Assembly: GCA_015709495.1 (NCBI GenBank)
Contig: CP054189.1
Location: 620,001-684,000, forward strand
From: Chthonomonadaceae bacterium
GTDB lineage: Bacteria > Armatimonadota > Fimbriimonadia > Fimbriimonadales > Fimbriimonadaceae
Direction of reading: 5' to 3'
DNA length: 64,000 nucleotides
Part shown: in pieces, positions 33,928 to 34,828 of the stretch
How the letters are laid out: every line of letters begins with the position of its first letter
How positions within the stretch are numbered: position 1 is the first letter of the stretch
Notes under the pieces: generated by a model
Seen by the model: the letters and a program-made list of their open reading frames with translations, nothing else
Databases searched by the model: none
Told to the model about the DNA's origin: nothing
Made by a program: the position numbers and the translations under genes

Positions 33928-34122
33928 TTAGCCTTCGGGAACATTGGTCGACTTGTAGGTCGCCTCGTTCACGAACTTGTACAGCTTGCTGCCCTGATAC
34001 TCGGCAGTAAGTGCATAGCGCACTTGCTTCCCGGACTTCGTGTTGCGCTCCATCTTGATCTTCTTCACAGAAGACTCGGGAACGTCCACGTGCGAACGGG
34101 TTTTCAAGTTGTAAAACTTCAT
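33928..34122 (-). CDS. Small basic protein, unknown family
   Basis: 64 residues, MKFYNLKTRSHVDVPESSVK at the start and a Lys-rich middle, ending KFVNEATYKSTNVPEG; no Cys, no membrane segment. It reads like a small conserved nucleic-acid- or ribosome-associated protein, but I cannot name a family. Of the possible starts, ATG 34122 sits 9 bases after an AGGAGGG ribosome binding site; ATG 34128 would sit too close. It is divergent from a Fur/Zur-family regulator, and both promoters cover one palindrome, so it may be a member of that regulon. Confidence 0.72.
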   Translation of the reverse strand: MKFYNLKTRSHVDVPESSVKKIKMERNTKSGKQVRYALTAEYQGSKLYKFVNEATYKSTNVPEG

Positions 34123-34185: not shown

Positions 34186-34215
34186 AGCATATCACAAAAA
34201 TCAGGTTCGATTGAA
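34186..34215 (-). promoter_or_regulatory. Candidate promoter for the small basic protein gene
   Basis: On the minus strand: TTCAAT (-35-like, 34210-34215), an 18-base spacer, then TGATATGCT, an extended -10 (TGn before TATGCT, hexamer 34186-34191). The -35 lies inside the AGGTTCGATTGAACCT palindrome. Confidence 0.5.
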
Positions 34216-34260
34216 CCTAAGTTTGCGACACTCTATGAAAGGACGCTCTTTTAGGTTCAA
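34203..34260. promoter_or_regulatory. Palindromic operator with a third half-site
   Basis: AGGTTC-GATT-GAACCT at 34203-34218 is a perfect inverted repeat. TTAGGTTCAA at 34251-34260 is an exact inverse copy of TTGAACCTAA at 34211-34220, so the half-site occurs three times. The palindrome covers the -35 of both divergent promoters and the third site lies in the leader of the Fur/Zur gene. This is the expected arrangement for an autoregulated metal-responsive repressor. The sequence does not match the classical Fur or Zur boxes I know. Confidence 0.6.
34211..34239 (+). promoter_or_regulatory. Candidate promoter for the Fur/Zur gene
   Basis: TTGAAC (34211-34216), 17-base spacer, TATGAA (34234-34239): each hexamer matches the consensus at 4 of 6 bases with ideal spacing. 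It overlaps the palindromic operator and would give a leader of about 60 bases before ATG 34304. Confidence 0.5.
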
Positions 34261-34303: not shown

Positions 34304-34828
34304 ATGGAGTCAAGAGCTGCGCCCATGAGAGCCTCGCAAGACCCAATCGAAGCCCGCAAATGCAACGTCGCCGACCAAAAACTCGCCGAATCCTTCGAAC
34401 GAGCCGCCATCGCCCACCTGAAAAGCGAGGGCTACCGCGTGACCAACCCCAGAAGGCTCGTGGTGCGCGAACTCGCGGCCGTTAACCGCCCCCTCCCTCC
34501 TTCCGAAATCCACGAAAAGATCGCCGGGTCAGGCAGTTCCATCGACCTGGTGAGCGTCTATCGCATCCTTCATGCGCTAGAGTCCGTCGGGCTCATCCAT
34601 CACATCGCCGCCATGGACGGCTACCTCGCTTGCCGATCGGATGCGGGCTCCGAGCACCATGCTGCGCACTTCATTTGCAGTCGGTGCGGCTGCGTTGATG
34701 AGCAAGTCCTCGATGAGACGGCTTGTCGGAGCATCGAGGGTCAAGGGCGCGAAGCCGGGTTCGCGACGGGCTCGTTCCGAGTCGAAGTGCTTGGTACTTG
34801 CCGCCATTGTCGTGGGACGGAAGGCTAG
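34304..34828 (+). CDS. Fur/Zur-family metal-responsive regulator
   Basis: About 174 residues from ATG 34304 (a second ATG at 34325 is possible). The winged-helix part contains YRVTNPRRLVVRELAA and the recognition-helix region SSIDLVSVYRILHALESVGL. The metal-binding C-terminal part has HHAAHFICSRCG and a final CRHC, giving two Cys pairs for a structural zinc and several His. Spacing and the VEVLGTCRHC ending look more like Zur than iron Fur, but the metal cannot be fixed from sequence. Palindromic sites upstream suggest autoregulation and control of the divergent small protein. Confidence 0.85.
   Translation: MESRAAPMRASQDPIEARKCNVADQKLAESFERAAIAHLKSEGYRVTNPRRLVVRELAAVNRPLPPSEIHEKIAGSGSSIDLVSVYRILHALESVGLIHHIAAMDGYLACRSDAGSEHHAAHFICSRCGCVDEQVLDETACRSIEGQGREAGFATGSFRVEVLGTCRHCRGTEG

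Follow-up and report, generated by a model that had tools for sequence, protein, structure and literature searches.

The region of interest lies between two divergent genes in the 64-kb stretch of DNA that was analyzed (here called the window), which belongs to a genome of one contig of 2.90 Mb. The gene on the minus strand (33928-34122) encodes a basic protein of 64 residues without cysteine and is preceded by a strong ribosome-binding site, and a DUF1800 gene lies beyond it. The gene on the plus strand (34325-34828, with an alternative ATG at 34304) encodes a Fur-family regulator (PF01475) with Zur-like metal ligands, and an aconitase gene lies downstream of it. Between the two genes is a palindrome, AGGTTCGATTGAACCT (34203-34218, no strand assigned), that recurs in perfect or near-perfect form at orthologues of this promoter across many genera and for which the family consensus is YAGGTTCMnTTGAACCTR. 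An extra half-site, AGGTTCAA, is located at 34253-34260, in what is presumably the leader of the regulator gene. Both elements are where an earlier note on this DNA, made from the sequence alone, had placed them. We define the palindrome as the putative operator of the locus. The literature searched had no account of this operator, nor of regulation by Fur-family proteins in the phylum.

An extended −10 element for the small-protein gene, TGATATGCT, was identified on the minus strand at 34186-34194 (reading from 34194 to 34186). The pattern TGnTAtnnT is kept at the same place across relatives, and this predicted −10 is well supported by that conservation. In promoters of the window type, the palindrome ends approximately 10 nt upstream of the extended −10 and covers the −35 region of the small-protein gene. 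In other lineages, the operator is in the spacer or follows the −10, and because its placement shifts from lineage to lineage, a repressor would fit better than an activator. For the regulator gene, a possible plus-strand promoter can be read from the sequence as TTGAAC (34211-34216) and TATGAA (34234-34239) separated by 17 nt, with the −35 inside the palindrome. The match is weak (8/12, below the scan threshold), and a consensus promoter scan found no promoter. The extra half-site at 34253 had no counterpart at a fixed position in relatives, and a part for it in looping or cooperative binding, as the earlier note suggested, is hypothetical; across 81 loci, 25 half-sites upstream of the small-protein gene lie outside the main site, compared with 1.2 half-sites in all in shuffled sequences.

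Counts within the window and the genome did not separate the motif from chance. Matches with up to two mismatches numbered 4 in the 64-kb window versus 2.8 expected, and 236 in the whole genome versus 264 for the reversed control; the window site is the best match to the motif model in its own genome. For comparison among relatives, the 300 bp upstream of the small-protein gene were taken from 95 distinct loci, 81 of them from the order (Fimbriimonadales-type Armatimonadota). Within these 81 loci, which are related by descent such that the counts are not independent trials, a perfect palindrome (12/12 bases) was found in 12 promoters, at least 11/12 bases in 24, and at least 10/12 bases in 40, compared with 0, 0.09 per 81, and about 1, respectively, in first-order Markov resamples. 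When diverged promoters were aligned, the operator and the −10 were the main conserved blocks and the rest of the intergenic sequence had diverged. Moreover, two lineages had changed both arms symmetrically, to AGCTTC...GAAGCT (L046, L107, and L114) and to AGGTTG...CAACCT (L036), and the symmetric operator variants are AGCTTCGATTGAAGCT, AGCTTCGCTCGAAGCT, AGCTTCGAACGAAGCT, and AGGTTGAAATCAACCT.

The octamer half-site (AGGTTCAA/TTGAACCT) occurred 43 times in 23.8 kb of upstream regions (1.80 per kb) and 20 times in the remaining 347 kb of the same loci (0.058 per kb), where the reversed control occurred 19 times. The half-site is 31 times denser upstream of the small-protein gene than across the remaining sequence of these loci, where it is at the control level, which argues for a functional element specific to that promoter. 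The genome search for the motif that the earlier note had proposed gave no enrichment genome-wide; enrichment at orthologous promoters was strong. We judge the palindrome to be real because of the comparison of orthologous promoters and not because of the window or genome counts. The comparison confirms the earlier observation of a palindromic operator shared by the genes of a Fur/Zur-type regulator and a small protein, and does so more strongly than that note could know. The comparison shows an operator that is conserved, promoter specific, and symmetric in a way that selection maintains.

The regulator matched the Fur profile PF01475 over residues 35-154 with 55.4 bits (cut-off 23.1; E 8.4e-15), which places it in the superfamily, and it is the single Fur-family protein of the genome. 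Its closest solved relative is 7dh7, a Fur-family structure. The regulator resembles E. coli Zur (4mtd) in its Fur-family fold, its helix-turn-helix, and its possession of all eight zinc ligands, four of them in site B (His77, Cys88, His96, and Glu111) and four in site A (Cys103, Cys106, Cys143, and Cys146). For this comparison, the E. coli Zur reference sequence was checked against 4mtd and the ligand list was taken from PMC4219657. The NCBIfam Zur equivalog NF008646 gave 44.8 bits, below its cut-off of 167, and none of the Fur, PerR, and Irr equivalogs was reached, the best being a Fur model at 51.3 bits versus a cut-off of 220, with the others lower. As every NCBIfam Fur/Zur/PerR cut-off was missed, we file the protein as a divergent Zur-like member of the Fur family and not as Zur, in agreement with the earlier suggestion of a distinct branch. 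The operator also departs from the E. coli precedent, as had been remarked: it is an even-length, GC-containing palindrome, AGGTTCA-nn-TGAACCT, unlike the published Zur box, GAAATGTTATA-N-TATAACATTTC (PMC4219657).

The regulator gene is divergent from and adjacent to the small-protein gene in 63 of the 81 loci, and the metal sites vary among these linked orthologues. Site A cysteines were wholly or partly lost in 20 of the 63, and His96 was variable among the 63 members. Perfect operators were present beside orthologues without an intact site A, including those of L043, L101, L117, L118, L120, and L146. One mutation in site A, or one in site B, is enough to abolish both DNA binding and repression by E. 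coli Zur (PMC4219657). Orthologues without site A, if they bind the operator, would manage without that site, and sensing in family members that lack the structural Cys4 site would have to be different or absent. One protein for comparison is PgFur of Porphyromonas gingivalis, which keeps and needs a CXXC structural zinc site and is without the regulatory histidine motifs (PMC6613475). Like the regulator family, PgFur is a divergent Fur-family protein missing part of the metal-binding apparatus, but PgFur keeps the CXXC and many of the orthologues here have lost the CXXC site instead. Co-variation of regulator and operator was considered and rejected as separate support: in L046, L107, and L114, which have the AGCTTC variant, a Pro of the helix-turn-helix is replaced by Thr, but the three form a single clade and count once.

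Perfect palindromes were found only beside the regulator, in 12 of the 63 loci that have it and in 0 of the 18 loci that do not; at some of these 18 (L102 and L052), a truncated contig or an incomplete assembly may be the cause. The motif in a broader sense (a site of at least 10/12 bases or a half-site) was present in 15 of the 18 loci without the regulator, mostly as a degraded site or a half-site, versus 38 of the 63 loci with it, and the other 25 of those 63 had no clear site. A regulator-family search found no orthologue in G005, G019, G041, G043, G044, G045, and G047; the only matches in G012 and G042 were distantly related Fur-family proteins. Genomes G019, G044, G045, and G047 lack such a regulator yet keep TTGAACCT just downstream of the −10, and the half-site TTGAACCT is conserved just downstream of the −10 at loci L050, L127, L131, and L134. 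If the regulator was lost recently and the operator decays slowly, degraded palindromes would be expected; the conserved half-site of L050, L127, L131, and L134 would be harder to explain in this way. We consider binding by the regulator likely but, since many regulator-less genomes keep the motif, unproven.

The explanation we favor, with a rough probability of 0.52, is that the palindrome serves locally as an operator dedicated to the small-protein promoter, most likely bound by the adjacent Zur-like regulator with repression of the small-protein gene as the result. We infer that a dimer of the divergently encoded Fur-family protein most likely binds the palindrome, over the −35 region in the window, and that the bound regulator would repress the small-protein gene and probably also the gene that encodes it. 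The signal, likewise inferred, could in the window be zinc because the regulator there retains the full set of eight E. coli Zur ligands. Counting for the regulator as the reader of the site are the adjacency at 63 of 81 loci, the restriction of perfect sites to its vicinity, its being the sole Fur-family protein of the window genome, and the lack of a detected regulon; counting against it are the motif in regulator-less genomes, the siteless regulator loci, and the palindrome's unlikeness to the E. coli Zur box. More tentatively, the regulators may be a Fur-family branch that serves a single operator and a single small protein and reads an even-length, GC-containing palindrome unlike the published Zur box; the part of the branch that has lost the structural zinc site but kept the operator would then sense something other than a metal, or nothing.

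The conservation of TTGAACCT at regulator-less loci puts the regulator at about even odds and keeps a second reader as the main rival, and one candidate for such a reader is the small protein itself. The small protein was found in 41 of the 41 order genomes searched, with two copies in one genome. Named relatives are Fimbriimonadaceae/Armatimonadota metagenome-assembled genomes, and relatives of the small protein also occur in Chloroflexota, Lentisphaerota, and other groups, where the regulator is not alongside. Searches of Pfam, NCBIfam, and the sequences of solved structures gave no family match for the window protein, and two of its relatives gave weak matches to eukaryotic Pfam models that are not meaningful. 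An origin as a degenerate zinc ribbon (DUF5679-like), suggested by a motif, was rejected, as Pfam gave it no support. AlphaFold2 predicted five strands and a C-terminal helix with confidence (pLDDT 94). With this model, the best Foldseek hit, at rank 1, was an affitin derived from Sac7d with a weak E of 0.42, and VIA-align gave a best Z of 4.0, also weak, and 2.8 or less for Sac7d. The predicted model resembles Sac7d, affitins, and OB-like ribosomal domains in size, basic charge, strand-rich topology, and C-terminal helix, but the structural matches are weak and no sequence relation was found. The small protein is possibly a small nucleic-acid-binding barrel, with fold matches too weak to mean function.

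Under this alternative, another order-wide factor would read the motif, either an unlinked regulator or the small protein by autoregulation, and the Fur-like neighbor may share the site without being the principal protein that reads it. The alternative would account for a motif that is kept in genomes without any such regulator, and a basic, predicted beta-rich protein present in every order genome searched, with very weak similarity in fold to small barrels that bind DNA, single-stranded DNA, or ribosomes, is consistent with it. Among the order loci, however, every perfect palindrome had the regulator next to it, no further regulator came to light, and the fold matches fall short of indicating a function. 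We therefore treat a different reader as possible and somewhat doubtful.

A zinc response, as the earlier note had envisaged, is improbable. Here, Zur would free a zinc-free small ribosomal protein in zinc scarcity, and metal-uptake genes would belong to the same regulon. The retention of all eight E. coli Zur ligands in the regulator and the small, basic, cysteine-free nature of the small protein are what such a response would predict. The small protein, however, occurs in all of the order genomes searched, whether or not the regulator is present, and in other phyla, and it matched no ribosomal family, such that the role of a zinc-free ribosomal substitute finds no support. The zinc regulon fared no better: a genome-wide regulon was rejected because the two-mismatch count was that of the control and most of the strong copies examined elsewhere were ends of mobile elements or of islands by tRNA-Ala, dispersed repeats, or intragenic sites. 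The promoter of the znuA operon, read by eye, had no AGGTTC palindrome upstream. Unlike Zur, the window regulator has no detected regulon or znuA site, and many of its orthologues are without the structural zinc site that E. coli Zur needs (PMC4219657).

Other elements were noted in the course of these searches. The znuA operon is preceded by a porin-like gene, and upstream of that gene is a TGCAA-N5-TTGCG-like element (L250:3090-3200), possibly the site of a metal regulator. A LexA/SOS box was rejected as the identity of the palindrome, as the box at lexA promoters in the order is of the GTAGAC type and not AGGTTC; that box is conserved and overlaps the lexA promoter in the order (loci L214-L243), and it is probably a LexA-binding site.

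Apart from the operator, the high-scoring copies of the motif in the window genome were an att-like pair next to tRNA-Ala (at 810 and 820 kb) and chance sites at scattered positions, most of them intragenic. At approximately 810.3 to 820.7 kb (G000:C1; L278:1850-12188), tRNA-Ala(CGC) is followed by an island of approximately 10 kb that is bounded by an 89-nt direct repeat consisting of the tRNA 3′ end, AGATTCAAATGAACCT, and GGTTCCTAA repeats. The island contains apparent copper/heavy-metal genes and a transposase, its att-like repeat resembles the operator palindrome, and its signature recurs in relatives (L199, L200, L205, and L206). Many of the repeated perfect copies read in relatives lie in dispersed repeats or mobile-element ends. 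Dispersed repeats with perfect AGGTTCAAATGAACCT-type palindromes were found at L195, L197, L198, L201, and L202 (G005 and G038); they usually adjoin a CCGC/GCGGG stretch and represent a mobile or repeat family.

That the palindrome is a transcription terminator, an RNA hairpin, or a mobile-element end and not an operator, as its listing in a scan as terminator-like on the minus strand and the near-identical palindromes at mobile-element ends elsewhere in these genomes might suggest, is very improbable: the window-type palindrome precedes the conserved −10 and is therefore outside the small-gene transcript, its location varies among lineages, neither a tRNA nor an integrase adjoins it, and the second signature of the tRNA-Ala copies (GGTTCCTAA repeats) is absent at the operator.

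If the adjacent Zur-like regulator reads the operator, as we favor, the palindrome would be a new kind of binding site for the Fur family. The locus would moreover offer a natural series of relatives in which the zinc sites decay while the operator stays, and that series would directly test how far the Fur family depends on metal. A conserved small protein, present in every order genome searched, would likewise gain a defined regulatory handle.
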